DNA of 64,000 nucleotides from Kriegella aquimaris. GTDB lineage: Bacteria; Bacteroidota; Bacteroidia; Flavobacteriales; Flavobacteriaceae. The stretch's first letter is position 1; every line of letters begins with the position of its first letter. The notes beneath the pieces are model-generated. The model was not told the origin of the DNA, did not search any database, and saw only the letters and a program-made list of their open reading frames with translations. A program made the position numbers and the translations under genes. The stretch lies in assembly GCF_900103215.1 (NCBI RefSeq), contig NZ_FNGV01000009.1, positions 124,001-188,000 on the forward strand. The letters run 5' to 3'. Below, piece after piece: positions 37,971 to 59,853 of the stretch.

Positions 37971-38093
37971 TGACTCTGGCGTTGCCAAAAAGTCGATAAT
38001 GCCGCATGACAATAGATTAACAAGTAACTTATAGGACAAAGGCTAAAGAGTTAAAATAGCATAATATGTTTTTTAAGGAAACTTAGAGAAGAA

Positions 38094-38124
38094 AAAGCCA
38101 AGATTATAAATCTTGGCTTTTTTT
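38094..38124 (+). terminator. Intrinsic terminator after sulP
   Basis: AAAGCCAAGATT (38094-38105) pairs perfectly with AATCTTGGCTTT (38109-38120) around a three-base loop, followed by a T-run to 38124. Confidence 0.9.
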
Positions 38125-38476: not shown

Positions 38477-39691
38477 ATGGCATCAAGTGTAAAAGTAACA
38501 TTACGTAAAAAACCGAACAAACAAGGACAATATCCCCTTGCGGTACGAATAACCAAAGATAGACGAACTTCATATCTCTACACAGGTCAATTTATTGAGC
38601 TAAAGTATTGGGATGCTTCAGGACGTGTAGTTAGAAAATCACATCCCAATGCAGCCAGGCTGAATAATCTCCTTCTTGCAAAGTTGTCAGAAGCAAATAA
38701 GAAGTTACTGGACCTTCAGACAACAAATACTGATATCTCGTCTAAGCAAATCAAAAAGGAGATTAGCGCCCCTCTAAATAAAACCACATTTAAGGAGTTG
38801 TCGGAAAGCTATCTTCTGGAAATTAAGGCAAATGGGAAACTGAGCCGATATGCTTCCGATAAAGTTCGTGTGAATCACTTACAGTGTTTTGCAGAAAATA
38901 ATTATTTGACGTTTAAGGAAATTGATGAAGCTTTTCTCAGACGTTTCATGAGTTATTTGAAAGTTACTAAAAAGGTCTCTCAACGAAGTATTGTCAATAA
39001 TCTAGTGGTTATTCGAACACTATATAATAGAGCCATTAAACAAGGAATTGTTGATAGGAAACATTACCCCTTTGGCGCAGATAAAATCCGTATCAAGTTT
39101 CCCGAAACGGAGAAAGTTGGGCTAACCATTGAAGAAATTCAAAATATAGAGGAATTGAATAATTTATCCAAACAGGAATGTCATGTTCGAAATGTTTGGC
39201 TCTTCAGTTTTTATTTGGCAGGTATGCGGGTCAGCGATGTGCTGCAAATAAGATGGAATGATATTTATGATGACCGCTTGCATTACCGTATGAACAAGAA
39301 CGATAAATTACTATCCCTAAAGTTGCCCAATAAGCTTTTGCCCATTTTACAGCAATATGTAGTGGATAAAGTAAACGATACCGATTTTATCTTTCCAGAA
39401 ATGAAGAAGGCGAATATGGAAAGCATGCAGGATATTTTTGCTAAGACGAAGACTGCAACCAAAAAGTTCAATAAATACCTCAAATCTATTGCTCAAAAGG
39501 CGAAAATGGACAAGAAACTTACCATGCATATTGCCAGACATAGTTTTGGTAACATAGCAGGGGATAAGATTCCTATTCAGATGCTTCAAAAGTTATATCG
39601 CCATTCTTCCGTAACCACAACAATCAATTACCAAGCGAATTTCATGCATAAGGATGCAGATGATGCCTTGGAAAAAGTGATAAACTTTTAG
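38477..39691 (+). CDS. Site-specific tyrosine recombinase/integrase (Bacteroidota type)
   Basis: 404 residues and apparently intact. There is an N-terminal arm-binding domain (about 1-90; KVTLRKKPNKQGQYPLAVRI), a SAM-like core-binding domain (about 103-195), and a catalytic domain with Arg251 in AGMRVSDVLQIRW, a lysine in the beta-hairpin (YRMNKNDKLLSLKL), His351 and Arg354 in HIARHSF, His376 in LYRHSS and the nucleophile Tyr385 in TTINYQ. All catalytic residues are present, so it may be active. It is transcribed away from the tRNA-Leu fragment, the classic place for the integrase of an island. A TATCTTTA -7-like box lies at 38449-38456. Confidence 0.95.
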   Translation: MASSVKVTLRKKPNKQGQYPLAVRITKDRRTSYLYTGQFIELKYWDASGRVVRKSHPNAARLNNLLLAKLSEANKKLLDLQTTNTDISSKQIKKEISAPLNKTTFKELSESYLLEIKANGKLSRYASDKVRVNHLQCFAENNYLTFKEIDEAFLRRFMSYLKVTKKVSQRSIVNNLVVIRTLYNRAIKQGIVDRKHYPFGADKIRIKFPETEKVGLTIEEIQNIEELNNLSKQECHVRNVWLFSFYLAGMRVSDVLQIRWNDIYDDRLHYRMNKNDKLLSLKLPNKLLPILQQYVVDKVNDTDFIFPEMKKANMESMQDIFAKTKTATKKFNKYLKSIAQKAKMDKKLTMHIARHSFGNIAGDKIPIQMLQKLYRHSSVTTTINYQANFMHKDADDALEKVINF

Positions 39692-40098: not shown

Positions 40099-40677
40099 TC
40101 ACTTATTTCCATTGCGGAATTTTTCAAACAAAACAAATAAAAGAACACTGTCGTTCTTAAAAGCTTCACGTATTTTGGTAAATGCAATCCGCATTTGTGA
40201 TTCAACGGTTTTGATTGAGATTCCCATTTGCGCTGCAATTTCCTTGTACCCTATACCTTGCACTTTATTCATCTGGATAATTTTTCTACACTTGGGTGGT
40301 AGGGTTTCAATTATCTCTTTCATTTTCTGAATGCGCATTTCTTGCATTTCTGAATCTTCCTCAATTCTATCTATCAATGCACGTTCCCAAATTTGATCTA
40401 ATAGTTTTTCTTGTTTTTTGGTCTTCTTGATGGTATCAATATACCTATTGTAGGCGATGGCATAGAGGTATCCTTTTGGGGATTTGGTTTCATCCAATTT
40501 CGATTTATCCTCCCAAAATCGAATAAACGCATGCTGAACAATATCTTCCGACTGAAATTTATCATGGGTGTAGGTGGTAATATAGGCCACAAGGCGGCTA
40601 TAATATGTGGTAAATAGATATTTGAAAGCACTCCGGTCTCCCCTTTTCATGGCTATCACAGCCTCGACTTCGTTCAT
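40099..40677 (-). CDS. ECF-type RNA polymerase sigma-70 factor
   Basis: 192 residues. Sigma region 2 is seen as FKYLFTTYYSRLVAYI .. QSEDIVQHAFIRFWEDK, and region 4 as LPPKCRKIIQMNKVQGIGYKEIAAQMGISIKTVESQM, the helix-turn-helix that reads the -35 element. It is divergent from the fecR-type gene at 40845 across a 167-bp gap. In PULs such sigma factors are held by the FecR-type anti-sigma and released when the partner SusC with STN domain binds substrate. It is thus the likely activator of the first island susCD pair. Confidence 0.94.
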   Translation of the reverse strand: MNEVEAVIAMKRGDRSAFKYLFTTYYSRLVAYITTYTHDKFQSEDIVQHAFIRFWEDKSKLDETKSPKGYLYAIAYNRYIDTIKKTKKQEKLLDQIWERALIDRIEEDSEMQEMRIQKMKEIIETLPPKCRKIIQMNKVQGIGYKEIAAQMGISIKTVESQMRIAFTKIREAFKNDSVLLFVLFEKFRNGNK

Positions 40678-40844: not shown

Positions 40845-41978
40845 ATGAAAAAAAATATCACCAAACTGCTTATTGGTACAATTACGGAAAAGGAGATTAT
40901 TGAGCTTCGGGATTGGTTGGAAAATCCAAAAAACAGGACTATTCTTGAATCGTATGTTCGGGACTATCATGATTTGAATTTAACCACACTAAAAAGTAAT
41001 CTCGATGAAGCCTACAATAAGGTGAGTCGTCAAATAGATAAGAAAGAAAAACCCGTTAAAACGTTGTTCCCAAATTGGACGAAGTATGCTGCTGCGATTG
41101 TAATACTATTTGGTTTGGGGTTTTTATTTCAACAAGGCTTCTTTTCTCTGCAGGACCATAAGTTTCCAGTGCCCCAAGAAACATTCATAACCTTGGAATT
41201 GGATAATGGTACCATTCAGACCATTGATGTTAATGGGACCAAAGAAGTTAGGGATTCTGAAGGGAATGTTGTAGGAGACCAAAACCAAAATCAAATTAGT
41301 TATAGCCAGGCAAACCAGAAGGAAGAATTGGTATATAACACCTTGACTATACCTAATGGAAAAAAGTTTCAGATTGAGCTTTCAGATGGGACTTTAGTAC
41401 ATCTAAATGCCGGGAGTTCTTTAAAATATCCCATAAATTTTTTAAGCAAAGAACCAAGGCAGGTGTTTCTGTCAGGGGAGGCCTATTTTAATGTAGCAAG
41501 AAATGAATTAAGCCCATTCATTGTTAACGTGGACCAACTGGACGTAAAGGTGTTAGGTACAGAATTTAATGTCTCGGCCTATACTGAGGATATTAGTATC
41601 GATGTTGTTTTGGTAAAAGGAGCGGTGATTCTTGGTAAAATGAGGAAATCGGAGGAGGAGGTTATTAGGTTGTCACCAGGTCAAAAGGGATCTTACGGTT
41701 ATGATTCCCGAGACATTTTGGTAAGTGCCGTAAATACCGATCTATACACTTCTTGGATGCAGGGTCAATTGGTTTTTAGGAATTTAACCTTTAACCAGAT
41801 TTTGGCGAAATTGGAACGCCATTACAATATAGAAATTGAGAATATGAACACCGATTTGGGTCAAGAAGTTTTTAATGCCAGTTTTAACAATGTTAAAATT
41901 GAGGAGGTGCTTAGTTTTTTTAATGATGCCCATAAAATCGATTATGAGATAAAAAATAACAAGATAATTATCAAGTAA
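40845..41978 (+). CDS. FecR family anti-sigma factor
   Basis: 377 residues. A cytoplasmic sigma-binding N-terminal region (1-80) precedes one membrane helix (about residues 83-102, AAAIVILFGLGFLFQQGFF). The periplasmic FecR domain spans about 165-285 (LTIPNGKKFQIELSDGTLVHLNAGS, VFLSGEAYFNVA, VLGTEFNVSAY). A C-terminal DUF4974/STN-like domain (about 305-377; LVFRNLTFNQILAKLERHYN) should contact the STN domain of the SusC protein encoded downstream. It controls the divergent sigma factor. Confidence 0.94.
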   Translation: MKKNITKLLIGTITEKEIIELRDWLENPKNRTILESYVRDYHDLNLTTLKSNLDEAYNKVSRQIDKKEKPVKTLFPNWTKYAAAIVILFGLGFLFQQGFFSLQDHKFPVPQETFITLELDNGTIQTIDVNGTKEVRDSEGNVVGDQNQNQISYSQANQKEELVYNTLTIPNGKKFQIELSDGTLVHLNAGSSLKYPINFLSKEPRQVFLSGEAYFNVARNELSPFIVNVDQLDVKVLGTEFNVSAYTEDISIDVVLVKGAVILGKMRKSEEEVIRLSPGQKGSYGYDSRDILVSAVNTDLYTSWMQGQLVFRNLTFNQILAKLERHYNIEIENMNTDLGQEVFNASFNNVKIEEVLSFFNDAHKIDYEIKNNKIIIK

Positions 41979-42050
41979 AAGAAGAGTAGAACCAAAAAAC
42001 AGATAAATATGATGTAGCCTACCGAATACCACTTATGACACTTTGTTTTC

Positions 42051-42129
42051 AATAAAACAAAACCGGAAAATGTTGGAGCATTTTCCGGTTGTAAAGGGTG
42101 ATCATGATTATTTACATAACCACAATAAA
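42051..42129 (-). ncRNA. Predicted cis-antisense RNA opposite the susC leader (DonS-like layout)
   Basis: On the minus strand a TATTTTTG -7 box (42142-42135) with a TTG at 42162-42160 (17-bp spacing) is followed about 80 nt later by a perfect 12-bp hairpin (arms 42090-42079 and 42072-42061, loop 6) and a T-rich tract. Transcription from about 42129 would give an RNA of roughly 79 nt complementary to the fecR-susC gap up to just before the susC start. The same layout occurs before the susC at 50097. Boxes, hairpin and U-tract are seen; the transcript is inferred. Confidence 0.5.
42061..42090 (-). terminator. Hairpin with minus-strand U-tract in the fecR-susC gap
   Basis: AACCGGAAAATG (42061-42072) and CATTTTCCGGTT (42079-42090) pair perfectly around TTGGAG. 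The following sequence is T-rich only on the minus strand (TTGTTTTATT), so it terminates antisense, not sense, transcription. Confidence 0.65.
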
Positions 42130-42141
42130 ACAATCAAAAAT

Positions 42142-45100
42142 ATGAAAAAACCACTTAACCAATGGAGGTCGGACAAGCCTTTGTTGAAATTTGACTTAAA
42201 AATGAAACTTACTACATTGTTATTGATAACGACCTTGTTGGGGTTGCATGCCAATAACAGTTACGCCCAAAAGACGAAGGTGACATTGAATGTTGAGAAT
42301 TCAACAGTTCGAAGCATTATCGACAATATTGAATCTAAGACGGAGTTCCGATTTATTTACAAGACAAAACAAATTGATTTAGAGCGCAAAGTATCGCTAA
42401 GGGTTGATAAAGAGTATATAGAAACCGTGCTAAATAGGTTGTTCCGTGATACAAGTACAATATATAAGGTTAGGGGCACTCATATCATTTTAAGGCGGAA
42501 CCAAGAAAAAAAAATATCTACGACCGAAATCTTCAAAAATGGTCCGATAGACCAGATGCAAGACTTTATAGCTACTGGTGTCATTACTGATTCCGACGGG
42601 GTTCCCCTACCAGGTGCGAATATCATCGAAAAGGGCACCACGAATGGGGTCACCGCAGACTTTGATGGGGGTTTTTCCATTTCAGTCAAAGATGAAAATG
42701 CCGTTTTAGTAGTTTCCTATATAGGTTTTTCGAATAAAGAGGTGCCTATCAATGGTCAAACGAATATTTCCGTGATGTTGGAGGAGAATGCAGCAGGGTT
42801 AGATGAAGTTGTTGTGGTTGGTTACGGTACGCAGAAGAAAAGAGATGTATTGGGTAGTATTGCTACGGTAAAATCGGACGTACTGGAAGATTCATCAGGA
42901 GCTAGTAACTTCACATCTTTGTTACAAGGCCAGGCAGCAGGTGTGAGCGTTCAAACATCTACCGGTAGGTTGGGCTCAGGTGTAGACGTTAAAATACGTG
43001 GGTTGAGTTCGATAAGTGCCGGAACTAGTCCGTTATGGATTGTAGACGGAGTACCAATTATTGCCGGAGCGGGTTCAAGTGCCGAGTATACTTCTGAACA
43101 ATCACCTTTTTCGTTGATTAACCAAGCGGATATTGAATCGATTGAGATATTAAAAGATGCTGCGGCCACTTCTATATATGGTTCAAGAGGCTCTAATGGT
43201 GTAATAATCATTACCACTAAAACTGGACGAAAAGGCAAGACATCCATTAATCTTGATTATAGTACAGGTGTTTCAGACCTACCCTTCCAAAGAGTAGATT
43301 TTGTCAATACAGAAGAATGGTTTGAGATAAGGGACAAAGCAAAAAAATCTTATGGCTTGGGTGATTATAGCATGACAGATTATTATGCGGGTTCGGTATA
43401 TTTAACAGAGCAACTTACTCTGGAACAGGCCAAATCAATCGATACCAATTGGTTTCAGGAAGCTATGCAAAATGGTAGTTTTCAAAGTATAAATCTATCA
43501 GCGTCTGGCGGTTCGGAGAAAGCGGATTATTTTATTTCCTCAAATTACCGAAAGGATAAAGGAGTGATGCTAAATGATGATCTTGAGCGATATGGTTTCC
43601 GTACAAACGTAAATTTGACCAGTTCCGATAACTTTAAAGTAGGAGCAAAACTGAATTTTTCATTGTCAAACAGCAACAGAGGTAAGAACTTTGGCACATC
43701 AAGTAGCGGAAATAAAGATGCTCGTTCTGGGGGATTTGCTTTTTTGAACACGAGTGCACAAACATTTAACCCGGTTTATAGTTTGGCAAACCCCAAAGAA
43801 TATTTCAATCCCTATGTTGGAAATCCGGTTGCCCTTAGTGATCGCGATAATATGGTTCAAGATGTTGAAATGTACCGTACTTTGGCAAGTTTATATGGAG
43901 AGTATGCTCTGCCATTCTTACCCCAACTCTCAGTGAGGTCTGAATTATCTCTTGATTTTGTGCAGGTTAATAGAAATACATGGTTGTCCGATGAGATTCG
44001 TTGGGATGGTTCATGGGCCGATGATTTTGCAAACACTATTAGAACATTCAATTACAATTTGTTCTTAAAGTACGATAAAACTTTTGGCGACCATAATATT
44101 ATTGCAATTGGAGGTGCGGAAGCTCAGCGTAGCAAGTCGTGGAGCCGTCGGATGCAAGGGGAGGATTTAGTAGGGAATTATAAGCAACTAGGCTCTCCAA
44201 GTCAAATGACCTCGATGTATTCCGGACTAGGAGGAGAAAGTTATTTGTTAGCTTATTTTGGTCGGGCGAATTACAAGTTTAAAGATAAGTATTTAGCGGG
44301 GATCAGTGTTCGTCGCGATGGGTCATCAGTATTTACCCCAGATTACCGATGGGGTACTTTCATGGCTTTTTCGGCAGGCTGGATAATGTCTGATGAAAAT
44401 TTTATGAAAGGATTTGGGGCCAATAATTTTTTGAAGTTAAGAGGTAGTTTTGGACAGACAGGTAACGCGGGTATCCCAAGTGGATTGGACGCATTTAAAT
44501 ATACCCCAGGAAATGCCTATGGCAGTGCAGATATATTTGCAACAAATGGAACATTGGTTTCAAGTATTGGGGTTTCTAATTTAACATGGGAAACAACTAA
44601 TAATTTTGATGTTGGGTTGGATTATGGATTATTAAATAACCGCATTAATGGTTCACTGGCTTATTATAATAAGTATGTCAAAGATTTACTTTTGGCGACA
44701 CAGTTGCCCCAATCATCAGGTATAAGCACAATTTATGGAAACATCGGTGATCTTGTTAATTCAGGGATAGAATTTAATGTGAGTTCAATAAATATTAGTA
44801 AGCCAGATTTTAAATGGCAAACCACTTTTAATATTGCATCTAATCACAATGAAGTGAAAAAACTAGTTCCAAGAATCGATGCAGACGGAGCTGGTATGGT
44901 GAGTTATGTTAATATTACTAAAACCGGCTATGCTGTGCGTGAATACTATTTAGCTGATTTTGCAGGTGTAGATCCCGAATCTGGGATATCTATGCTATAT
45001 GCTCTTGATAAGGATTATTATGACGAGACTAATGAAACACGTAGGTTGAAAGATGAAAATGGAGAAGATGTGAAAATTATTAATAGCAATTCGAATGCCA

Positions 45101-45648
45101 ATGCTAATAAATTTCACTTAAAAGGAAAGAATTCCATTCCTGCATATTATGGTGGTCTAACCAATAGTTTTAGTTATAAGGGGTTTGATTTAAACCTGTT
45201 GATTACGTTTTCAGGGGGTAACTACATTTTTGATAGTTTTTATAGAGATATGGCTACCGATTATAGTGGTACAAGGCGTATGCTGAAGGACGTGTATGAT
45301 GATTATTGGAAGTCTCCAGGTGATGATGCGAAATTTCAACAAGTAAATTGGAATTCAAATATTAAATTAGAAGATGGCACCACAATCGGTCTTGGTGATC
45401 CGCGAACCAATACCGACCAATTTTTATTTAAAGGAGACTATGTGAAGTTTAAGTCTGCGACTTTGGGATATACCGTACCTAAATCGACAAAAGTCGGGAG
45501 TTTGTTCGAAGGTTTGAGATTGTATACCACGGTTGAAAATCTACACACAATAACAAAATATCCAGGATGGGATCCTGAAGGGAGTGCCACATCGTGGGAT
45601 CTACCTCAGTTATTTTCTTCAACATTTGGTGTCTCCATTAAATTCTAA
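42142..45648 (+). CDS. SusC/RagA TonB-dependent transporter with STN signalling domain
   Basis: 1168 residues from ATG 42142; the frame is open back to 42043 but that part covers the leader hairpin. A signal segment (MKLTTLLLITTLLGLHANNSYAQ, about 22-44) is followed by an STN domain (about 52-120), the part that talks to FecR proteins. Next come a carboxypeptidase-regulatory-like domain (about 145-230), LDEVVVVGYGTQKKRDV (about residues 221-237), the plug and the barrel ending VSIKF. It imports glycan fragments with the SusD encoded 10 bp later and, by its STN domain, should report substrate to the FecR/ECF pair upstream. Residues near 183-210 are encoded by DNA nearly identical to the 50097 gene. 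Confidence 0.95.
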   Translation: MKKPLNQWRSDKPLLKFDLKMKLTTLLLITTLLGLHANNSYAQKTKVTLNVENSTVRSIIDNIESKTEFRFIYKTKQIDLERKVSLRVDKEYIETVLNRLFRDTSTIYKVRGTHIILRRNQEKKISTTEIFKNGPIDQMQDFIATGVITDSDGVPLPGANIIEKGTTNGVTADFDGGFSISVKDENAVLVVSYIGFSNKEVPINGQTNISVMLEENAAGLDEVVVVGYGTQKKRDVLGSIATVKSDVLEDSSGASNFTSLLQGQAAGVSVQTSTGRLGSGVDVKIRGLSSISAGTSPLWIVDGVPIIAGAGSSAEYTSEQSPFSLINQADIESIEILKDAAATSIYGSRGSNGVIIITTKTGRKGKTSINLDYSTGVSDLPFQRVDFVNTEEWFEIRDKAKKSYGLGDYSMTDYYAGSVYLTEQLTLEQAKSIDTNWFQEAMQNGSFQSINLSASGGSEKADYFISSNYRKDKGVMLNDDLERYGFRTNVNLTSSDNFKVGAKLNFSLSNSNRGKNFGTSSSGNKDARSGGFAFLNTSAQTFNPVYSLANPKEYFNPYVGNPVALSDRDNMVQDVEMYRTLASLYGEYALPFLPQLSVRSELSLDFVQVNRNTWLSDEIRWDGSWADDFANTIRTFNYNLFLKYDKTFGDHNIIAIGGAEAQRSKSWSRRMQGEDLVGNYKQLGSPSQMTSMYSGLGGESYLLAYFGRANYKFKDKYLAGISVRRDGSSVFTPDYRWGTFMAFSAGWIMSDENFMKGFGANNFLKLRGSFGQTGNAGIPSGLDAFKYTPGNAYGSADIFATNGTLVSSIGVSNLTWETTNNFDVGLDYGLLNNRINGSLAYYNKYVKDLLLATQLPQSSGISTIYGNIGDLVNSGIEFNVSSINISKPDFKWQTTFNIASNHNEVKKLVPRIDADGAGMVSYVNITKTGYAVREYYLADFAGVDPESGISMLYALDKDYYDETNETRRLKDENGEDVKIINSNSNANANKFHLKGKNSIPAYYGGLTNSFSYKGFDLNLLITFSGGNYIFDSFYRDMATDYSGTRRMLKDVYDDYWKSPGDDAKFQQVNWNSNIKLEDGTTIGLGDPRTNTDQFLFKGDYVKFKSATLGYTVPKSTKVGSLFEGLRLYTTVENLHTITKYPGWDPEGSATSWDLPQLFSSTFGVSIKF
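42691..42770 (+). repeat. 80-bp block identical to 50640-50719 within the two island susC genes
   Basis: Every base of 42691-42770 equals 50640-50719, silent positions included. One mismatch follows and then 14 more identical bases. A further identical stretch (ACTGATTCCGACGGGGTTCC and on) lies about 100 bp upstream in both. The rest of the genes is clearly divergent. It encodes the end of the carboxypeptidase-regulatory-like domain. Confidence 0.85.
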
Positions 45649-45658
45649 ATCCATAATC

Positions 45659-47260
45659 ATGAAAAAAGTTTTATTTTATATAGTACTATTACTGGCCACT
45701 ATCTCTTGTGAAAATGAAGAATTTTTTGAACTGGAAAGGCCCGTTCAAAGACCGTGGTTGAATTTAACTGAATTTGAAAGAGCTCCCATAGGAGCTTATA
45801 GAGAAATTTTTTCAACAAACCTAAGTTGGGGCAATGGATTTAATTATTGGTATTTGTACAAAAACGCGGTTGGCGATGATGTTGCTTGGGCAACACCAGG
45901 GGACGCCGCTTGGGGATGGTATCGTGACACTGAAAACGAAAAGGCGTGGTTGTCAGAAATGTTCACGGATTGTTATAAGACGATATCGTCTGTAAATGAT
46001 GCCATTCAATATGTTGAGGAAAATAATGGGAATCCCTATCCAGACATTAACGAAGCAGACAAAGTAAATAATCTTGAACGAATTGTAGGGGAGCTTTATT
46101 TTTTAAGAGGTTTTTCATATTATATGGTTGCAACTACTTTTGGCGATGCCTATGAGCCGGGGGGAGTCAATGGTGCGCAACAAATACCTTTAAGAATAGT
46201 AAGAGCAAGTTCTTATGAGGAAGCAGCTAATTCAAAAATTGGCATGACTGAAGAAATCTGGAATCAAATGCTTTCTGATTTTCAAACAGCCTACGAGATG
46301 CTTCCTGAGCGATATATTCCCGGAATAATGCATGTTTCGTATCAGGCGGGAAGGGCCAATAAATTTGCGGCCGCTGCTATGTTGGCCCGGATATATTTTG
46401 GAATGGGAAATTATACTAAGGCAGAGGAATATAGCAGTTTTGTTATTGATGAGAATAATGGTGACTATGACTTAAGTGAAGACCCCATTGAAGCCTTCAA
46501 CAAAAGTACCCTAGCGCGTGCAAAGGAGACCATTATGTACACACCGTGTTATGATGAAACTTTTGGCAATCAAAATTTGCATGCCGCAACTTTTAGTAAT
46601 CTTCTAATTGACAATCCAGTTCCTTGGGTAGCTACTCACATGGATTATGCAACTGCACAGCGCTTAGGGTGGATGTCTGATCCTAAAAATGACACAACCA
46701 TTACCATTTTGGCTAGAAGGGATAAACGCTTTCAACAATTAATGGCATTTCGCGGAGCTTCTAATGTGCCGGAGTCAGATAGAATAGAAGGAATCTATTA
46801 CGAAACACGGACGAATTTAATGTGGAGGACCATACTTGCGAGTAAATATTTTAGAGGTCCTGGGGGGAGATATACCAATGTTCCAACCCTACGTTTGGCC
46901 GAAATGTACCTGACTCGGGCTATATGTCGATTTAGGGGTGGTGATAAAGAAGGCGCCGCATCCGATTTAAACGTGGTAAGAAAACGAGCATGGGATGAAT
47001 CGATTGCCGGTGAGCCTTATGAATTTTCGGATAGTCATGTTACATCAAGTAATGTTACAGAGCAAATGATCAATGATGAACGCTTGATTGAAATGTTTAT
47101 GGAGGGTGATAGAATAGATTATTTGAGAGGATTAAAAGTAGATGTTCCGAACAATGAGCCGGAAAGAGGAGTTCCTGCGTCTGTTCCTTATACCGATAAA
47201 GGGTTTGTTTGGCCAATCCCAATTAATGAAACCGAATTGAATCAGGGATATGGTAATTAA
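45659..47260 (+). CDS. SusD/RagB family substrate-binding lipoprotein
   Basis: 533 residues from ATG 45659; an in-frame ATG at 45584 lies inside susC. MKKVLFYIVLLLATISC is a lipoprotein signal with Cys17. SusD helical features are LERIVGELYFLRGFSYYMVATTFGD, AGRANKFAAAAMLARIYFGMGNY, RLAEMYLTRAICRF and the C-terminal NDERLIEMFMEGDRIDYLRGL, ending FVWPIPINETELN. It partners the SusC 10 bp upstream. A hairpin about 150 bp downstream probably ends the unit. Confidence 0.95.
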   Translation: MKKVLFYIVLLLATISCENEEFFELERPVQRPWLNLTEFERAPIGAYREIFSTNLSWGNGFNYWYLYKNAVGDDVAWATPGDAAWGWYRDTENEKAWLSEMFTDCYKTISSVNDAIQYVEENNGNPYPDINEADKVNNLERIVGELYFLRGFSYYMVATTFGDAYEPGGVNGAQQIPLRIVRASSYEEAANSKIGMTEEIWNQMLSDFQTAYEMLPERYIPGIMHVSYQAGRANKFAAAAMLARIYFGMGNYTKAEEYSSFVIDENNGDYDLSEDPIEAFNKSTLARAKETIMYTPCYDETFGNQNLHAATFSNLLIDNPVPWVATHMDYATAQRLGWMSDPKNDTTITILARRDKRFQQLMAFRGASNVPESDRIEGIYYETRTNLMWRTILASKYFRGPGGRYTNVPTLRLAEMYLTRAICRFRGGDKEGAASDLNVVRKRAWDESIAGEPYEFSDSHVTSSNVTEQMINDERLIEMFMEGDRIDYLRGLKVDVPNNEPERGVPASVPYTDKGFVWPIPINETELNQGYGN

Positions 47261-48022: not shown

Positions 48023-48601
48023 ATGTCCGCAGAAAAATCCTATACTAACGAATTGCTTGTTACTCAGTTTAGAAACGGTAACAAACAGGCGTTTCAGAAG
48101 CTTTTTGAGCTGTATTGGGAATCAATGTTTGTACAAGCTAAAGCTATACTTTCGGATGGAGAAATAGCAAAAGATGTAGTTCAGGAAATTTGGGTTGAAC
48201 TATGGAAAAGTAAAGAAAATAAGGTAATTGTAAATTTCGAGGCTTATATTTTTAAAGCGGTCAGGTATGGTTGTTTTAAATATTTAAGAGATAATAAGTT
48301 CAATGCCGTTCAGCTTTATGTTATCGATTCATTACAGTTATCTAACCATGATGTTGAAAATCAACATGATCTAGAGGAGACTCAAATCGTTATTGCCAAT
48401 TCTTTAAAAGAATTGTCCCCAAGGTGTCAACAAATTTTTCGATTAAGCCGAATTGAAGATAATAGTAATGAAGAAATTGCTTTACATTTGGGCATATCAA
48501 AGCGCTCGGTTGAAAATCAAGTTTCCTTGGCATTAAAAGCTATCAGGGAAAACTTGGGAATTCTACATAACGTACCCTTCATCATTTTTTTTCTTTGTTG
48601 A
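48023..48601 (+). CDS. ECF-type RNA polymerase sigma-70 factor
   Basis: 192 residues. Region 2 (FQKLFELYWESMFVQAKAIL, KDVVQEIWVELWKSK) and region 4 (LKELSPRCQQIFRLSRIEDNSNEEIALHLGISKRSVENQVSLALK) are clear. It ends with a hydrophobic FIIFFLC tail. Unlike the first sigma gene it is co-directional with its fecR gene, 178 bp upstream of it. It should activate the second island susCD pair when freed by its FecR partner. Confidence 0.94.
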   Translation: MSAEKSYTNELLVTQFRNGNKQAFQKLFELYWESMFVQAKAILSDGEIAKDVVQEIWVELWKSKENKVIVNFEAYIFKAVRYGCFKYLRDNKFNAVQLYVIDSLQLSNHDVENQHDLEETQIVIANSLKELSPRCQQIFRLSRIEDNSNEEIALHLGISKRSVENQVSLALKAIRENLGILHNVPFIIFFLC

Positions 48602-48779: not shown

Positions 48780-49907
48780 ATGCGCGAACAGGAATTCCGG
48801 AAATTATTGGATAAGTATCTTAATGGCTCTATATCCGATGAAGAAAAAAAAATTCTCGAAAAATTTAATGAGAATATGATTTCAATAAACGATAGTCCGC
48901 ATTTTAAAGATGAATCGAATAAAATTGAAATTAAGGAATCTTTATGGAAAGATATCAAAGTCGAAAGCAGGTTTAATAAGAAGAAAACAGGTTTCTGGAG
49001 AATAGCTGCAGCGAGTGCAGCTGTATTTATAGGAATAATGACTTTAGGATATCTCTACATCTACAATACAAGGGCGACTTCGCTAGATATCATTCCTGAG
49101 AATGCCATCACCTTGGAACTTGAAGACGGAAGGCTTGAAATTATTGAAGAAAATGGTTCTGTGCAAGTGACCGACAAGAAGGGCGCCGTACTTGGTCAAC
49201 AAAAAGGAAATCGATTGGAGTACTCGGAAACTGGCAATGCAGAGGAGCTCATTTTTAATACGCTGACAATACCTTTTGGCAAAAAATTTGAATTAAAACT
49301 TTCTGACGGCTCGAAGGCTTTTCTCAACTCTGGGTCTTCCATAAAATATCCAGTAAAATTTTTAGATGGTCAAGATAGAAGTGTCTTTATTTCGGGCGAG
49401 GCCTATCTCAATGTTGCAAAAGATTCAGCACACCCCTTTATTGTAAATGCCGGTAAATTGAATGTTCGTGTTTTAGGCACAGCATTCAACGTTTCTGCGT
49501 ATCCAGAAGATGAAACGACGGAAGTCGTGCTTGTAGAGGGGTCGGTCAGTCTTTCAAGTGAATCGAAAAATGAGGGCAATGAAGATGTGGTAATGTTGGA
49601 ACCGGGGTTTAAAGGTGTTTTAGATAAAAGAGACAAGAATATCACTAAAAATCAAGTCATTACGGCTATGTATACTTCTTGGATAGATGGCAAGTTAGTT
49701 TTCCGGGATATGACCTTTGAAAACATTGTCAAAAGACTTGAAAGGCATTATAATATTTCAATTGTAAATAAGAATAAATCATTGTCAACTAAGAAATTCA
49801 ATGCTAATTTTGGGGATGAGCCGATTGAAAAAGTGCTCGAAGAACTCAAATCGAATTATGGCATTAAGTTTAAAATAATTGATAATAGTCAAGTAATAAT
49901 TGAATGA
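48780..49907 (+). CDS. FecR family anti-sigma factor
   Basis: 375 residues. An N-terminal cytoplasmic sigma-binding part (1-75) is followed by a membrane helix (about 78-98, AAASAAVFIGIMTLGYLYIY). The FecR domain (about 155-275) has LTIPFGKKFELKLSDGSKAFLNSGS, VFISGEAYLNVAKD and VLGTAFNVSAYPEDE. A DUF4974 domain follows (about 300-375; LVFRDMTFENIVKRLERHYN). It is closely similar in layout to the 40845 gene, supporting a duplicated regulatory module. It sits between its sigma factor and the STN-containing SusC. Confidence 0.94.
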   Translation: MREQEFRKLLDKYLNGSISDEEKKILEKFNENMISINDSPHFKDESNKIEIKESLWKDIKVESRFNKKKTGFWRIAAASAAVFIGIMTLGYLYIYNTRATSLDIIPENAITLELEDGRLEIIEENGSVQVTDKKGAVLGQQKGNRLEYSETGNAEELIFNTLTIPFGKKFELKLSDGSKAFLNSGSSIKYPVKFLDGQDRSVFISGEAYLNVAKDSAHPFIVNAGKLNVRVLGTAFNVSAYPEDETTEVVLVEGSVSLSSESKNEGNEDVVMLEPGFKGVLDKRDKNITKNQVITAMYTSWIDGKLVFRDMTFENIVKRLERHYNISIVNKNKSLSTKKFNANFGDEPIEKVLEELKSNYGIKFKIIDNSQVIIE

Positions 49908-50010
49908 AAAACGAATTATGAACCATGTAAAATAGATGTCAATGAAATAAAAAATCCGACACGAACAGAATGCTAAAAAACCAATTGCTTATTACTCTTC
50001 GTCGCAATAG

Positions 50011-50084
50011 ACAAAAAACCGGAAAATGCTCGAACATTTCCCGATTTAGTAGTAGTGATTAAAGTAAAAATAACCACATTTTAA
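50011..50084 (-). ncRNA. Predicted cis-antisense RNA opposite the second island susC leader (DonS-like layout)
   Basis: On the minus strand a TACTTTTG -7 box (50097-50090) overlaps the susC start codon, and about 70 nt later a hairpin (50046-50017) runs into a six-base T-run. This predicts an RNA of about 74 nt. It shares the hairpin right arm (CATTTTCCGGTT) and the 5' block TGTGGTTAT (plus-strand ATAACCACA, 50070-50078) with the RNA predicted at 42051-42129. The -33 element is weak. Expression is not shown by sequence. Confidence 0.5.
50017..50046 (-). terminator. Hairpin with minus-strand U-tract in the second fecR-susC gap
   Basis: AACCGGAAAATG (50017-50028) and CATTTCCCGATT (50035-50046) form 10 of 12 pairs. 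The T-run lies on the minus strand (50018-50013). The hairpin is 50 bp from the susC ATG, against 51 bp in the first copy. Confidence 0.6.
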
Positions 50085-50096
50085 CACCTCAAAAGT

Positions 50097-53000
50097 ATGA
50101 AAAAACTTCTTAATTGTAAAAGAAGGCGATATCCTTTACTCTCCTATGATTTAAAAATGAAATTAAGTACGCTGTTTATATTGGTCACATTTTTTACTTT
50201 ACAAGCCAATGATAGCTATGCACAACGTGCTAAAATCACTTTGAACCTCAATAATGTTTCTGTTGGTCAACTTCTTGACGAAATTGAAAGCACCACTGAA
50301 TTTCAATTTGTTTATAAGATCGAAGATGTTGATTTGAAACGCATTGTTTCCATTAGTGTAAAGAACGAAGGAATTTCTAAGATTTTGAATGACATCTTTG
50401 AAAATACTAATACAACATTCAATTTAAATAAACGTCGCATTTATTTGGTTGGTAGAAAACCTTCTCCTCCCATAAAAAGCCAAAAAGTAGATAGTACTAT
50501 TCCTGTTCAACAAAGTTCGGTAAATGGAGTTGTAACTGATTCCGACGGGGTTCCCCTGCCAGGTGCGAATATTATTGAAAAAGGTACTACAAATGGGGTT
50601 ACCGCAGATTTCGACGGGAATTTTTTTATTTCAGTAAAAGATGAAAATGCCGTTTTAGTAGTTTCCTATATAGGTTTTTCGAATAAAGAGGTGCCTATCA
50701 ATGGTCAAACGAATATTTCGGTGATGTTGGAGGAAAGTGCTGCCGGCCTTGACGAGGTCGTAGTGGTCGGGTATGGAACGCAAAAGAAGAGAGATGTAAT
50801 TGGGTCAATGGTTTCGATTAAAGGTGAAGACATAGCAAAGACACCCACAACCAATCTTGCTGATAATTTACAGGGTATGGCTAGCGGTGTGATGGTTAAT
50901 AGCAGGAGCGGCCACCCAGGAAGCGCCCCAGAGATAAAGATACGTGGTATTAATTCGATTAATTTGAGTTCAGACCCTCTTTGGATTGTAGATGGGATAC
51001 CCATATTTACTGGATCTTCTGAACTTAATCGTGATGGTGTAAAAGCTGTTTCTCCCATTTCAATGCTCAACCCAAATGATATCACATCGATTGAAGTTTT
51101 GAAGGATGCGGCTGCAACTGCCATTTATGGAAGTAGGGCATCAGGCGGAGTAATTTTAGTTACAACAAAATCAGCACAAAGTGGAAAAACTGGCGTAAAA
51201 ATATCTTATGATATGGGGGTTTCTAGCATTCCATTTTCCCAAGAAGATATTTTTGTAGATTCAAAAACATGGTGGCGACTATCAGATACAGCAGCAGCTA
51301 ATTCAGGTACGGTAGCACCTGATCCGGCAAGCATTATGGCTATCCAATTTTGGGGTGATCGACCCGACATGTCCAGAGCCGAAGCGGAAGCGACAAATGT
51401 AGACCAGCTTAATGCGGTAACCCAAGATGCGCTGTTTACTCAAATTGGATTTTCCGCTAACAAAGGTTTCGAAACTGGTGGGGTGCTATTTTCTTTGAAC
51501 TACCGTAATGAGGATGGTTTAATCCGCAACAATGATTTCGAAAGGTTAACAAGTCGTATTAATTTTAATTTTAAACCATTAAAATCAGTTGAGATTGGCA
51601 TCAACTCGAATTTTGTTTATCTAAAAACAAATGGTGTCCGATCAGCTCAAGGAAAGGGCGCAGGTGGTTGGGCAAATTGGAGCCATACTTTGCCTTGGTG
51701 GAAGATTTATGATGAAAATTCACAAACCGGTTATTGGGCTGTAAATAGTGGATATAACATGACTGCATTTTCCGATCGTGATTTAACAAGATATGATGTT
51801 GATCAATATAGAAGTATAAATAATGCCTACGTGCAATGGTTACCTACTGATGGTTTAAGTATAAGAGGTGAAGTAGGGGTCGATTTAAATGTAAACAATA
51901 GTTCTTATTGGCGATCTGGGTTATTGGCGCCATCTCCCCCATATTTTTCACAAGCACAAGAACAGTCGGTAACAAGATCTATTGTGAATTACAATGTGTA
52001 TGCGAATTACAATAAAGTGTTTAATGAGATTCATAGTTTTGATTTTACGTTAGGTACTGAAGCTTCACGTAATTGGTCATACACGAGAACGTTTGCAGGA
52101 GATGGGTTGCAGACAGAATACCCTGAATTAAGAAACCCTTTGCAATTGAATTCTATGGCAGGATACCAAGGTGGAGATACCTACATAAAAGGATTTTTTG
52201 GAAGAGCCAATTATAAACTATTTGATCGCTATATGCTGAATGCTAGTGTGCGCCGTGATGGCCATTCCGCATTTAATGAAGAAAACCGCTGGGCTAATTT
52301 TTATGCCGTTGGACTAGGCTGGATTCTTTCCGACGAAAATTTTATGAAAGATTCGTCTACTATCAGTTTGTTAAAACTTAGGGGTAGTTACGGAATTACT
52401 GGAAATACCGCAGTTTCCAATTCGATGACTTATATGTCATGGGGTCTTAATACCTCTAGTATTTGGGGCGTTGACTATGCTGCTGGGTCTTCAACAGTTG
52501 GCCCTCTTGGGAGTGCGGATCTAAAATGGGAAACAACGACGAACATGGATTTTGGGCTTGATTTTGGCTTATTCTCTAATAGAATTAATGGTTCTGTCGC
52601 ATTTTATACTCAAAAGGTAGAGGATTTAATATTGAGAGGAAATGTGCAACCTTCAGTAGGTTTTAATAATAATCAAATCTATGAGAATGCCGGTGATATG
52701 AAAAATTGGGGTTTTGAGTTTAACATTTCATCATCTAACATTCAAACTGACAATTTTACATGGAAAACAGACTTCAATTTCAGCACTAATCATAATAAAA
52801 TTATCATATTAAATGAAACCGAAAAAGGCAAAGGAAAAGAAGATGCCCAGGTGATTCGAAAAGAAGGGGAAGCTTTGAATACATGGTATCTCGCAAATTA
52901 TGTCGAGGTAGATCCAGAAAGGGGCATTCCAATGATTGAAGAGAGGGATAGTGATATATGGGATAACGAGTTTAGAACAGTTGCAACGGGTTCAATTATT

Positions 53001-53567
53001 CCTGCAACAAGTACGAATGTTGCTGATAACAGAATGGTTCAGAGCGGAAAATCCCCCCTACCTACTTTTTATGGAGGATTAAGTAATACGTTCGCATATA
53101 AGAATTTTGATTTGAATATGTCATTTAGCTTCGAAGGGGGCAATTGGTTGTGGAATTCGCTATATGCGGAAAACCATAATGTTATGAGTGAAGTCAATAC
53201 GATAAATGATGTTGTTGGGAAATTTTGGGAAAAACCGGGTGACATCGCTGAATATCCACTATTGTTGGGTGGAAGTGATGGGTGGTATTATGATAGTGAT
53301 GGAAATCCTTCTGAAGCTAGAATTGGTTACAACACGAGACAAACAAGCAAATGGCTTGAAAGAGGAGATTATATCAAGTTAAGAAATTTGCAATTGGGCT
53401 ACACTTTACCAAAATCTGCGGGAATGGATGTTTTATCTCCCGTTCGGTTTTATATCGGCGTTACTAACCTTTTCACCATTACAGGTTATAAAGGCCTAAA
53501 TCCAGAGTCTCTTAACGACTTGCCTATACCCCGTACCTACACTTTCGGAATTTCCATTAATCTATAG
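50097..53567 (+). CDS. SusC/RagA TonB-dependent transporter with STN signalling domain
   Basis: 1156 residues. A signal segment (MKLSTLFILVTFFTLQANDSYAQ, about 21-43) precedes an STN domain (about 50-115; VGQLLDEIESTTEFQFVYK). The carboxypeptidase-regulatory-like domain spans about 140-225, with LDEVVVVGYGTQKKRDV at about 220-236. The plug has MASGVMVNSRSGHPGSAPEIKIRG and PLWIVDG, and a barrel ends FGISINL. With the SusD 12 bp later it forms the second glycan importer of the island. The STN domain links it to the FecR and ECF genes upstream. An 80-bp identical block with the 42142 gene points to recombination between them. Confidence 0.95.
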   Translation: MKKLLNCKRRRYPLLSYDLKMKLSTLFILVTFFTLQANDSYAQRAKITLNLNNVSVGQLLDEIESTTEFQFVYKIEDVDLKRIVSISVKNEGISKILNDIFENTNTTFNLNKRRIYLVGRKPSPPIKSQKVDSTIPVQQSSVNGVVTDSDGVPLPGANIIEKGTTNGVTADFDGNFFISVKDENAVLVVSYIGFSNKEVPINGQTNISVMLEESAAGLDEVVVVGYGTQKKRDVIGSMVSIKGEDIAKTPTTNLADNLQGMASGVMVNSRSGHPGSAPEIKIRGINSINLSSDPLWIVDGIPIFTGSSELNRDGVKAVSPISMLNPNDITSIEVLKDAAATAIYGSRASGGVILVTTKSAQSGKTGVKISYDMGVSSIPFSQEDIFVDSKTWWRLSDTAAANSGTVAPDPASIMAIQFWGDRPDMSRAEAEATNVDQLNAVTQDALFTQIGFSANKGFETGGVLFSLNYRNEDGLIRNNDFERLTSRINFNFKPLKSVEIGINSNFVYLKTNGVRSAQGKGAGGWANWSHTLPWWKIYDENSQTGYWAVNSGYNMTAFSDRDLTRYDVDQYRSINNAYVQWLPTDGLSIRGEVGVDLNVNNSSYWRSGLLAPSPPYFSQAQEQSVTRSIVNYNVYANYNKVFNEIHSFDFTLGTEASRNWSYTRTFAGDGLQTEYPELRNPLQLNSMAGYQGGDTYIKGFFGRANYKLFDRYMLNASVRRDGHSAFNEENRWANFYAVGLGWILSDENFMKDSSTISLLKLRGSYGITGNTAVSNSMTYMSWGLNTSSIWGVDYAAGSSTVGPLGSADLKWETTTNMDFGLDFGLFSNRINGSVAFYTQKVEDLILRGNVQPSVGFNNNQIYENAGDMKNWGFEFNISSSNIQTDNFTWKTDFNFSTNHNKIIILNETEKGKGKEDAQVIRKEGEALNTWYLANYVEVDPERGIPMIEERDSDIWDNEFRTVATGSIIPATSTNVADNRMVQSGKSPLPTFYGGLSNTFAYKNFDLNMSFSFEGGNWLWNSLYAENHNVMSEVNTINDVVGKFWEKPGDIAEYPLLLGGSDGWYYDSDGNPSEARIGYNTRQTSKWLERGDYIKLRNLQLGYTLPKSAGMDVLSPVRFYIGVTNLFTITGYKGLNPESLNDLPIPRTYTFGISINL

Positions 53568-55836: not shown

Positions 55837-57759
55837 ATGAAAATACCACTAGTACTCATTTTTTTGCTGATTTCTATTTTATGTTTTTCACAAGATTTTT
55901 CAAATTATGATAAACGAAAACAATTTATCATTGAAGGACTAAAAAACGTAACGCTTACGGAGCGCGGAAAGCACGGCCTTCCCAAGGCCATTGCTCGGCT
56001 CGAATCCGATCCGCACGACGGGGCTGCATTGACCTATATTACCAATGATCTTGAGAATCGCCACCAAAGCATGTTCGACTTTCCGGGGATTGCGTTGGCC
56101 TTATGCCGCTATTGGGACAGCTTCAATGCAAAGCAATTGGAAAAAATAAAGGGCGACCTCGAAAATTTGGCCAAGCCCGATAAGCAAAATGGCGAAGGTT
56201 TTTTGGGTCACGGTACCGAGAACCATGCTACTATGATGTGGTCTAGTGCCTATCTTTTCGGTCAGTTATTTCCAGATGCCAAATGGGCCAATGGGATGAC
56301 CAGTGATGAACTGATGGCGGATATGAAAGAGCGTTTGCGCAAGACCTTTAAAAACGTTTATGCCCACGGCTATACCGAATACCTTTCGACTACCTATGAA
56401 GTGGTAATGAACTTCCCCGTCGAAATACTATTGGAATATGCCAAGGATCCGGAAATGAAGGCAATTGCAGAGGCTTTTATGCTCTACAAATGGTCCTTGT
56501 TGTCATTGAACAACTTTGAGGGGAACATCCTTGCCCCCTATGGACGGATGAACACTCAGCAGGATCATCTTTCAGATGATAGTTATATCTCGGCCACCAC
56601 CTATTACAATTGGTTGATGTGGGGCTGGGGTCCGGCCACTTCAAACATGAAGATGCACCAATTTGACGACTATTCTGAAGCGAGCTATACCATTTTTTCG
56701 GCATTGTCGGGAGTGGTCCCTCCGAGTGTTTTCTTCCAGTTGGCCGGTAACGATCCCGCCCCGTTCGAGCTAAAAACTTCGGCATCTACATTTGGACATT
56801 ATGGTTCAGCGGCTCCCCATCAGATGATGCGCAAGGTGTACCGCAACAAGACCTATGCCATCGGGACGGGGAATTTTCGCTGGGTACCCGGCGGAGATTA
56901 TGCCGACCATGATGCCAATGGGTTCAACATCACTTACCATAGCCCCGACCGGTTCAATTATATCAATTGCTTTCATCCCTACTGGTACAGCGACGGTGAT
57001 GAAAAAGACCGTACCCCGGATACTTGGTACAAAGGGAACATTTCACCTTTTCAACAGACCGCCCATTCTAAAAATACGGTAATCACTCTTTTCAACATTC
57101 CGGAAAAGGATCCGTGGGTGAATACGCCTAGTGAATCGAAATGGGCCTGGCGCGATGGGCATGCCGACAATCTGATCAAAAGGGGGATGTTGCGCTATCC
57201 GAAATCGGTAGATGAGAAAGTGGAGGAGAATGGCTGGATCTTTCTTAGGGAAGGCGACACCTATATAGGCATAAAACCCTTGAAAAGCTACTATGAACAG
57301 ACCGATTTGAAAGGTACGGGATTAGACGGTTTCAACATCGTAAAGAGCGATTACGCCCAGACCGGCTTTGTCTTTGAACTCGGCAGCAAAGCAGAATCGG
57401 GAAGCTTTGAGAAATTCCGGCGAACCTTGAAGAAGAACCGGCTTTCCATCGATTGGAAAAACATGAGCGTCACTTATACCGATAGCCAGAAGGAGAAGCT
57501 GCAGATCCAATATAAGGATGGCCTCCCCATTGCTACCGAAAATGAAATGCCCGAGCATTTAGTGAAAAAGGGAATCAACGGGATGGCCGAATCGGTTCCT
57601 ACCGTAAAAATCGAAAACAAGAAGGAGAAAGGGTACCGTCAATGGCCGATGATTGAAAGCCCTTTTATAAATATGAATAGCAGTGTCTTGCGAATTCATG
57701 ACGGAACAACTGATATTGAGGTTGACTGGCAAGCTGATTATCCAGTAATCAAAAAATAA
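55837..57759 (+). CDS. Secreted polysaccharide lyase candidate (alpha/alpha-toroid plus beta-sheet architecture), family not recognised
   Basis: 640 residues with a signal peptide (MKIPLVLIFLLISILCFSQ). The first ~300 residues look all-helical, like the toroid of heparinase II/PL8-type lyases, and include GHGTENHATMMWSSAYLFGQ (Asn129-His130). The rest (about 310-640) looks beta-rich (TYAIGTGNFRWVPGG, GWIFLREGDTYIGIKPL), as in the C-terminal sheets of those enzymes. Asn, His and Tyr residues suitable for beta-elimination are present, but I cannot name the family. The next gene, 7 bp later, is a GH105 unsaturated uronyl hydrolase that acts on lyase products, which supports the guess. GC content is visibly higher than in the susCD genes before it. 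Confidence 0.6.
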   Translation: MKIPLVLIFLLISILCFSQDFSNYDKRKQFIIEGLKNVTLTERGKHGLPKAIARLESDPHDGAALTYITNDLENRHQSMFDFPGIALALCRYWDSFNAKQLEKIKGDLENLAKPDKQNGEGFLGHGTENHATMMWSSAYLFGQLFPDAKWANGMTSDELMADMKERLRKTFKNVYAHGYTEYLSTTYEVVMNFPVEILLEYAKDPEMKAIAEAFMLYKWSLLSLNNFEGNILAPYGRMNTQQDHLSDDSYISATTYYNWLMWGWGPATSNMKMHQFDDYSEASYTIFSALSGVVPPSVFFQLAGNDPAPFELKTSASTFGHYGSAAPHQMMRKVYRNKTYAIGTGNFRWVPGGDYADHDANGFNITYHSPDRFNYINCFHPYWYSDGDEKDRTPDTWYKGNISPFQQTAHSKNTVITLFNIPEKDPWVNTPSESKWAWRDGHADNLIKRGMLRYPKSVDEKVEENGWIFLREGDTYIGIKPLKSYYEQTDLKGTGLDGFNIVKSDYAQTGFVFELGSKAESGSFEKFRRTLKKNRLSIDWKNMSVTYTDSQKEKLQIQYKDGLPIATENEMPEHLVKKGINGMAESVPTVKIENKKEKGYRQWPMIESPFINMNSSVLRIHDGTTDIEVDWQADYPVIKK

Positions 57760-57766
57760 GCGAACT

Positions 57767-58909: not shown

Positions 58910-58940
58910 GTTCAATTGAAAATTATTAAAAAAGTATAGT

Positions 58941-59777
58941 ATGAAAAAAAAGATTTTTCTTATTGTTTTGCTTTTAGGTATGGTATCCTCTGGTTTCTCA
59001 CAGAAAAAAACCATTACCTATAAATTGATTGAAAACCTTTCCTATACCGATGTCTACGAGGGTAAAAAGGACGATTATATGAAGGAGCGTTGCAAACTGG
59101 ATATCTATTATCCCAAAAACCAAAAAGATTTTGCAACGGTGGTTTGGTTCCATGGCGGCGGTTTGACAGGAGGGGAAAAATCCATTCCCAATGATTTGAA
59201 AAATAAAGGCAATGCAGTAGTTGCTGTCAATTATCGGTTGCATCCCAAAGTAAAATGCCCGGTCTATATAGAGGATGCTGCTGCTTCGGTGGCCTGGGTT
59301 TTTAGAAATATTGCAAAGTTTGGGGGCGACCCTGCTAAAATATTCGTTTCAGGGCATTCGGCAGGAGGCTATTTGGCTAGTATGGTGGGCCTTGACAAAA
59401 GTTATTTGGCCAAGTTCGGTGTCGATGCCAATTCAATTGCTGGACTGATTCCTTTTAGTGGACATACCATTACCCATATGACCGTGCGGAAAGAAAATGG
59501 AGTAGGCAACAAGCAACCGGTGGTCGATAAATTCGCACCATTGTTCCATGTGCGTGCCGATACTCCGCCATTGGTACTAATAACGGGCGACCGAGAGATT
59601 GAGATGTTGGGCCGCTATGAAGAAAATGCCTATATGTACCGGATGATGAAAGTTGCGGGGCATAAAGAGACAAGCCTCTATGAGATGCCCGGTTTCGACC
59701 ACGGAACGATGGCGTGGCCGGCCAGTCATATCTTGCAAAAACATATCGAGAAAATTTTAAAATCAAAACAGGACTGA
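58941..59777 (+). CDS. Secreted alpha/beta hydrolase, probable carbohydrate esterase (BD-FAE/acetyl esterase-like)
   Basis: 278 residues with a signal peptide (MKKKIFLIVLLLGMVSSGFS). It has an oxyanion motif HGGG (71-74), nucleophile elbow GHSAGG (Ser140), likely acid Asp217 (LITGDREIE) and catalytic His254 (GFDHGTM). This is the layout of small carbohydrate esterases that remove acetyl or feruloyl groups. The exact ester is unknown. It lies in the enzyme operon between GH105 and GH16 genes. Confidence 0.85.
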   Translation: MKKKIFLIVLLLGMVSSGFSQKKTITYKLIENLSYTDVYEGKKDDYMKERCKLDIYYPKNQKDFATVVWFHGGGLTGGEKSIPNDLKNKGNAVVAVNYRLHPKVKCPVYIEDAAASVAWVFRNIAKFGGDPAKIFVSGHSAGGYLASMVGLDKSYLAKFGVDANSIAGLIPFSGHTITHMTVRKENGVGNKQPVVDKFAPLFHVRADTPPLVLITGDREIEMLGRYEENAYMYRMMKVAGHKETSLYEMPGFDHGTMAWPASHILQKHIEKILKSKQD

Positions 59778-59853
59778 TAAGGGGGAAAGAGCATGCGAAT
59801 CCTGTAAAATTAAAAGAGAGACATTCAATTTTATTCCAATCTTTAAGAAGTGT

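Follow-up and report, generated by a model that had tools for sequence, protein, structure and literature searches.

The leader of the first susC gene in the 64-kb stretch of Kriegella aquimaris DNA analysed here (the window) probably encodes, on the minus strand, a cis-antisense RNA of about 78 nt of the DonS type, which would be started by the housekeeping sigma factor and restrain a susC under ECF/FecR control. We put the probability of this reading at about three in four. A putative antisense transcription unit is well supported by the comparative analysis, and from it we infer transcription, pairing in the cell, the direction of the effect (repression) and its purpose (a threshold or a shut-off). 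In the proposed mechanism, the housekeeping sigma factor would start the RNA at a TAnnTTTG box built into the start codon of susC; the RNA would run back across the susC 5' leader and stop at an intrinsic terminator. As long as FecR keeps the ECF sigma factor sequestered, the RNA would pair fully with stray susC leader transcripts, whose translation would be blocked or which would be marked for decay, by analogy with DonS. Once the glycan frees the sigma factor, the susC mRNA would exceed the antisense RNA.

Both polysaccharide utilization (PUL) modules of the window have the gene content of the ECF sigma/FecR anti-sigma type (Table 1), and the start codon of the first susC was set by conservation of MKK...LKMK. 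The hairpin of the first locus reads AACCGGAAAATG-TTGGAG-CATTTTCCGGTT, and the terminator-like site found there lies on the minus strand (12 pairs, tail TTGTTTTATT), with no terminator reported for the plus strand at that place. From 42142 to 42051 the minus strand folds with -25.8 kcal/mol (z = -5.3), a value equalled by none of 200 shuffles. Perfect stems of at least 12 bp with a loop of 3–8 nt occur twice in the window (38092–38122 and 42061–42090) and in none of 20 block-wise shuffled windows. Read on the plus strand the box is CAAAAATA, on the minus strand TATTTTTG; the susC ATG begins with the A at 42142. By the rule for Flavobacterium psychrophilum, a member of Flavobacteriaceae, +1 falls at sense position -12, where the antisense base in the first window locus is U. 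The resulting RNA would measure 78–80 nt, and the median over the 83 family leaders described below is 76 nt, with ends predicted by rule. The perfect hairpin, the U-tract exclusive to the minus strand and the box over the start codon, all described by the sequence-only reading, are thus present, and its estimate of an RNA of about 79 nt agrees with our predicted ends.

Table 1. Positions of the genes and predicted antisense elements in the window, and loci carrying the second type of terminator
Feature	Position or locus	Strand	Remarks
ECF sigma factor, divergent to fecR	40099..40677	-	gene content of first module
fecR (anti-sigma factor)	40845..41978	+	FecR, FecR_C domain matches
Predicted antisense RNA gene, ~78–80 nt	42051..42130	-	start ~42130, end ~42051–42053; box and terminator
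Terminator U-tract (plus strand A-rich)	42051..42060	-	sequence
Intrinsic-terminator hairpin, 12 bp, 6-nt loop	42061..42090	-	R1 53.9 bits, R2 54.7 bits; locus is a row in both models
-7 promoter box TATTTTTG (TAnnTTTG)	42135..42142	-	first two bases opposite A of ATG and preceding T
susC	42142..45648	+	TonB-dependent receptor; STN, CarboxypepD_reg-like and plug domains
susD	45584..47260	+	listed ORF start overlaps susC 3' end
ECF sigma factor, second module	48023..48601	+	gene content
fecR, second module	48780..49907	+	gene content
Second predicted antisense RNA, over second-module susC leader	50008..50085	-	ends approximate; R1 50.5 bits
Terminator hairpin of second antisense RNA	50016..50047	-	two pairs G.U antisense = A.C sense
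-7 box TACTTTTG over second susC start codon	50090..50097	-	sequence
susC, second module, STN type	50097..53567	+	gene content
Second-type terminator loci	L004, L005, L183–L189, L191, L193, L194, L197, L213	antisense	Y-shaped hairpin

A like arrangement is found in the second ECF/FecR/SusC module of the window, at 50016–50097. The genome has 22 FecR_C matches, of which 19 (L004–L022) were counted as FecR genes with a leader behind; L023 and L025 (weak matches inside SusC frames of 1151 and 1163 aa) and L024 (no such gap) were left out. The hairpin, hereafter type A, occurs in 12 of these 19 fecR–susC leaders and ends 46–57 nt before the ATG. All 12 copies carry an A-run on the 5' side, which is a U-tract on the antisense strand. 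Four of the 19 leaders (L009, L015, L018 and L021) failed the thermodynamic scan, L021 having a model match. Model R1, made of the hairpin alone with the start codon excluded, found in this genome the 12 leaders, one extra place (L037) and six weaker matches on the sense strand that echo those palindromes. At L037 (contig C13, 50687–50731) a thirteenth copy stands before a start reading MKKLP and then a stop, with no open susC start behind the hairpin. A CarboxypepD_reg-like frame of 1063 aa lies about 575 nt downstream (matched at C13:51306–51548), and the susC N-terminus of this locus looks broken or frameshifted.

The sequence-only reading had proposed a covariance search beyond the locus, and this search found hairpin and box kept in paralogs and relatives. 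R1 matched eight of 40 genomes, its own included, all within one family (Flavobacteriaceae), and the 24 loci from other genomes all stand 40–52 nt ahead of an ATG that opens a SusC-like N-terminus, as judged by eye. Model R2, built from 37 hairpins and run on the family with stricter filters, matched 92 of 397 family genomes (72 of 237 genera) and left 305 without a match. In the class it matched 16 of 395 genomes, of which 12 belong to other families. The 63 loci that we inspected were for the most part top scorers, to which 20 from the low-scoring end of the matches listed were added; phmmer placed a susC downstream in 55 of them (48/50 in the family, 7/13 outside). As to the two family misses, the sequence of L111 ends 59 bases past the hairpin and L109 is unexplained. 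The six outside-family model matches with no susC behind (L118, L119, L120, L123, L124 and L126, out of 13) are probably chance hits or other terminators. The family set used below comprises 83 leaders (12 from the K. aquimaris genome, 24 from the R1 search and 47 from the R2 searches; L037, L078, L109 and L111 were dropped), and its rows share descent, so that the counts do not represent independent events. The distance from the model end to the ATG is 40–57 nt in 82 of the 83 and 104 nt in one.

Two further features of this set may be mentioned. The stem CGGGAAATG and a TTGCAG-like loop are kept among the 83 leaders beyond the apparent need of a mere terminator. Between hairpin and start codon, about 20–25 nt before the ATG, the same leaders have a weakly conserved A/C-rich stretch (AACC-like), which could be where the antisense RNA makes contact, or else a signal of the susC leader.

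As far as sequence comparison can tell, the minus strand is the conserved RNA, because wobble pairs, U-tract and fold strength all point to the antisense strand. Covariation in the 37-row alignment amounts to both-side changes in 10 of the 12 pairs (33 cells), a level reached by none of 500 shuffles. These compensatory changes speak against a DNA palindrome serving as operator for a regulator or as ECF promoter element, a reading that the conservation of the stem CGGGAAATG across genera would favour. It is further opposed by the strand-specific wobble pairs and U-tract and by a different hairpin at about the same place in the second leader type (see below), and we hold it to be highly improbable. 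Comparison of the 83 leaders shows selection on the antisense strand: 108 cells are G.U antisense (A.C sense) and none G.U sense, with 20 further mismatches among 996 cells, and in the 37 rows the ratio is 45 antisense to 1 sense. Model matches and loop fitting are biased toward the antisense strand; the 12 hairpins of the K. aquimaris genome, chosen before any model and free of this bias, give 15 antisense to 1 sense (a single C-A cell). The U-tract is antisense in 77 of the 83 leaders and sense in none.

Fold strength was compared in a fixed segment from -100 to -10, blind to the hairpin, of 45 FecR-anchored family leaders (19 from the K. aquimaris genome, 24 of 29 in a family sample, whose other five had no downstream ORF by rule, and two from a class sample). 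The antisense fold is stabler in 42 of the 45 leaders vs 119 of 262 control genes, with medians in the leaders of -23.0 kcal/mol antisense and -12.4 kcal/mol sense. A structure of the susC mRNA leader itself (an attenuator, a riboswitch-like element or a stability hairpin) was considered, since the site lies within the likely susC 5' UTR and the palindrome of the first locus also folds on the sense strand, with a plus-strand model score of 36.3 bits. Such an element would have to form through A.C mismatches wherever the antisense strand has G.U pairs (108 to 0, and 15 to 1 in the 12 unselected hairpins), with the weaker fold in 42/45 leaders and a sense U-tract in 0/83. G.U polarity, fold strength and U-tract led us to discard it as extremely unlikely.

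We now turn to the start of the predicted RNA. Most of the 83 leaders share the start-codon consensus [C/T]AAAnnTATG. With leader start codons picked by rule, an antisense TAnnTTT stands at one exact position in 71 of the 83 leaders and TAnnTTTG in 44, compared with nine and two, respectively, of 264 control ORFs of the same genome, whose starts are first-ATG guesses (first ATG of ORFs of at least 150 aa, from 400 kb of 6.06 Mb). Bacteria of this phylum typically have A-rich starts. TAnnTTT is absent from 12 of the 83 leaders, and the box region overlaps the site of A-rich translation signals. Excerpts of PMC9723704 describe the sigma-A promoters of F. psychrophilum as TAnnTTTG at -12 to -5 from the start, which places the antisense start at sense -12. 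At this expected +1, 52 of the 83 leaders have a sense C (antisense G) vs 16% of the controls. Sense position -1 is T in 79/83 leaders (controls, 38%), and a C or T occupies -7 in 79/83. In the 75 nt upstream of the hairpin the 83 leaders have no conserved sense promoter, with one weak position only. The TTG that the sequence-only reading had seen 17 bp upstream of the box is present (minus strand, 42162–42160) but not conserved, sense CAA reaching no more than six of the 83 leaders at any one offset between +8 and +33, and we dropped it as a -33 promoter element. Of the DonS-type control of susC which that reading proposed for this flavobacterial island, the short antisense transcription unit was supported at the sequence level, by box, terminator, spacing, strand signals, compensatory changes and recurrence, and the TTG as a conserved -33 element was not.

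FecR–susC leaders that have no type A hairpin often carry the box as well, in the form TAAATTTG. This and the A-rich starts of the phylum are what one would expect if the box were a mere translation-initiation signal of STN-type SusC genes and antisense transcription started elsewhere, an explanation that we initially preferred. An earlier scan had allowed loops of up to 10 nt and missed Y-shaped terminators; with longer loops, most leaders devoid of the CGGGAAATG hairpin turned out to have an antisense terminator of their own, a Y-shaped hairpin mostly with a G-rich 5' arm (loci in Table 1), which weakened that explanation. Of 14 Y-type hairpins, a set selected for being antisense terminators, 13 have the stabler fold on the antisense strand and one (L213) has it on the sense strand. 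Both leader types keep TAnnTTTG and differ at nn, and -1 T and -7 C/T are near-constant in the 83 type A leaders as given above. TAnnTTT is found in two of the 22 first-ATG contexts of SusC-like genes that lack a FecR-type N-terminus (by eye). We regard a box acting solely in translation as improbable and retain the predicted promoter at the start codon.

Box and terminator also occur together. An antisense terminator 30–60 nt before the ATG is present in 33 of the 45 FecR-anchored leaders, a sense one in four, the box in 33 and both antisense terminator and box in 30; of the remainder, three have the terminator alone, three the box alone and nine neither. The corresponding numbers are 17, 11, nine and zero in 262 control genes, and 16, three, 11 and zero in 450 shuffles. 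The cut-offs (dG <= -10, 30–60 nt) were fixed after viewing the longer-loop scan, so that the later samples (28–62 nt; whole gap) are the cleaner tests. One of these was anchored on SusC: in named genomes, by SusC alignment alone, the best 80 loci were taken, and 31 were scored (match starting within the first 40 residues). Among these 31, 26 have an antisense terminator, one a sense terminator and 23 the box; all 23 boxes come with the terminator and none stands alone. R2 at E <= 1e-4 matched 17 of the best 80 loci, all antisense, in Polaribacter, Allomuricauda, Arenibacter, Maribacter, Cellulophaga, Gelidibacter, Lutibacter and others, plus Puteibacter, a member of Bacteroidales.

These counts bear on whether the terminator is merely a guard, stopping antisense transcripts from anywhere in susC before they enter fecR and the sigma gene, with no dedicated small RNA acting on susC. 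The antisense U-tract and fold are signals that a terminator alone would also give. A guard would leave unaccounted for the 40–57 nt between model end and boxed start codon in 82/83 leaders, the terminator accompanying 23/23 boxed loci among the 31 scored named loci, and the C at -12, which agrees with a fixed start. We therefore judge a guard function to be unlikely, though the least so among the alternatives. Sequence comparison shows box, terminator and a narrow spacing between them, as expected for a short antisense unit.

Beyond Flavobacteriaceae, 26 leaders of the class sample were scored at dG <= -8: 12 have an antisense terminator, six a sense terminator and two the exact TAnnTTTG over the start. 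This sample, with mostly one FecR locus per genome and many FecR genes without a susC leader behind, is a poor test and lends weak backing to such a layout outside the family. A FecR-rich sample, a favourable choice, covered six genomes of four other families with 40 FecR sites, of which 39 were analysed (L343 being short) and 38 have a downstream gene (L326 has none). In these 38 leaders the gap contains an antisense terminator in 26 cases and a sense terminator in one, and the exact TAnnTTTG covers the start codon in 11, all these being raw counts. Of the 26 terminators, two lie at 22 and 43 nt from the ATG; the other 24 are spaced 48–111 nt from it or fall closer to this range than to the 30–60 nt of the family. 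The 48–111 nt spacing would fit the RNAs of 78–128 nt reported for the DonS family.

DonS-type RNAs belong to PULs under the control of ECF sigma and FecR anti-sigma factors. The DonS antisense RNA of Bacteroides was reportedly treated by Cao 2016. PMC12565237 mentions that work as a citation only, and excerpts of PMC7366714 and PMC10994844 describe DonS-like, PUL-associated cis-antisense RNAs in Bacteroides fragilis and B. thetaiotaomicron, with a length of 78–128 nt for the DonS type (PMC7366714). The RNA predicted here would likewise be antisense to a susC homolog of a PUL (by position) and would have, as judged from sequence, an intrinsic terminator and a housekeeping-type promoter box of its own, such a box being common among these RNAs; both window modules also have the ECF/FecR gene content. 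Its length, predicted by rule at about 76–80 nt, compares with the 78–128 nt of that excerpt. It differs in that a hairpin (CGGGAAAUG/CAUUUUCCG) is common to 12 paralogous leaders and in that the box is fused to the start codon. The likeness was drawn from description and layout. As far as the sequence tells, the element would work like DonS, and it is by layout that we set it beside DonS.

FopS and GibS of B. thetaiotaomicron act, according to excerpts of PMC11697453, on several mRNAs via a 5' seed and are bound by RbpB, and FopS is deposited in Rfam. They are alike in being multi-copy small RNAs with a 3' terminator hairpin that act near the susC start codon, and differ from the present RNA, which is encoded opposite its target. 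Searches of the window and 16 loci against Rfam (4227 families) gave no match at gathering score, which bears on FopS only if the release includes its model; a permissive search of 41950–42250 gave eight matches, all far below gathering scores. A search of the genome (99.99% complete) for RRM_1 proteins gave no match at E <= 0.001, a control Bacteroides genome being positive, and an RbpB-like partner is therefore unlikely. For F. psychrophilum, excerpts of PMC9723704 report mapped TAnnTTTG promoters and 40 independent RNAs antisense to genes, cite DonS and offer the antisense list as a possible start for DonS-like studies; these excerpts describe no susC-leader RNA, in which the catalogue differs from our loci. 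Within the open-licence literature, consulted in excerpt, DonS-type RNAs are described in Bacteroides only, and no report there contradicts the statement of the sequence-only reading that such control had not been described for this lineage. Our data point to the arrangement known from gut Bacteroides being present in many flavobacteria as well.

Pairing energies were computed for the 12 paralogs. Whole RNAs give -113 to -149 kcal/mol with the cognate leader and -21 to -81 kcal/mol with non-cognate ones; with the terminator removed, the values are -44 to -69 and -8 to -37 kcal/mol. Since cognate pairing far exceeds non-cognate pairing, action mostly in cis would be the simplest reading. Some antisense–PUL pairs of B. 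thetaiotaomicron correlate positively, according to excerpts of PMC10994844, and repression is for this reason not certain. A broader scenario, which we offer as speculative and rather doubtful, is that of an ancient Bacteroidia unit in which susC genes under ECF/FecR control have an antisense promoter built into their start codon and, about 30–110 nt away, an antisense terminator whose hairpin was replaced several times. In Flavobacteriaceae a common hairpin (CGGGAAAUG stem, UUGCAG-like loop) might then allow up to a dozen paralogous RNAs to cross-pair, or to bind an RNA-binding protein of non-RRM type, in a network that ranks glycans.

Flavobacteria play an important part in the breakdown of polysaccharides, and little is known about the way they select one of their dozens of uptake systems. 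If our reading is true, a post-transcriptional brake of gut Bacteroides would be a common, sequence-predictable trait of ECF/FecR-controlled susC in the family, and perhaps in the class. With the covariance model and the box-plus-terminator rule this can be examined across many genomes, and an Rfam family could be based on them. A promoter inside the start codon would also mean that susC reporter constructs carry a hidden antisense gene.

Other features of the window were recorded. A tRNA gene search across it found none. The second perfect long stem (38092–38122; 14 bp, loop 3) precedes the first PUL module and has a tyrosine integrase gene (38477–39691) close by. Behind the second SusC/SusD pair, 55837–63070 encodes two glycosyl hydrolase family proteins (families 88 and 16), an esterase-like hydrolase, a right-handed beta-helix protein and a protein of 640 aa that matches no Pfam family at E <= 1e-8.
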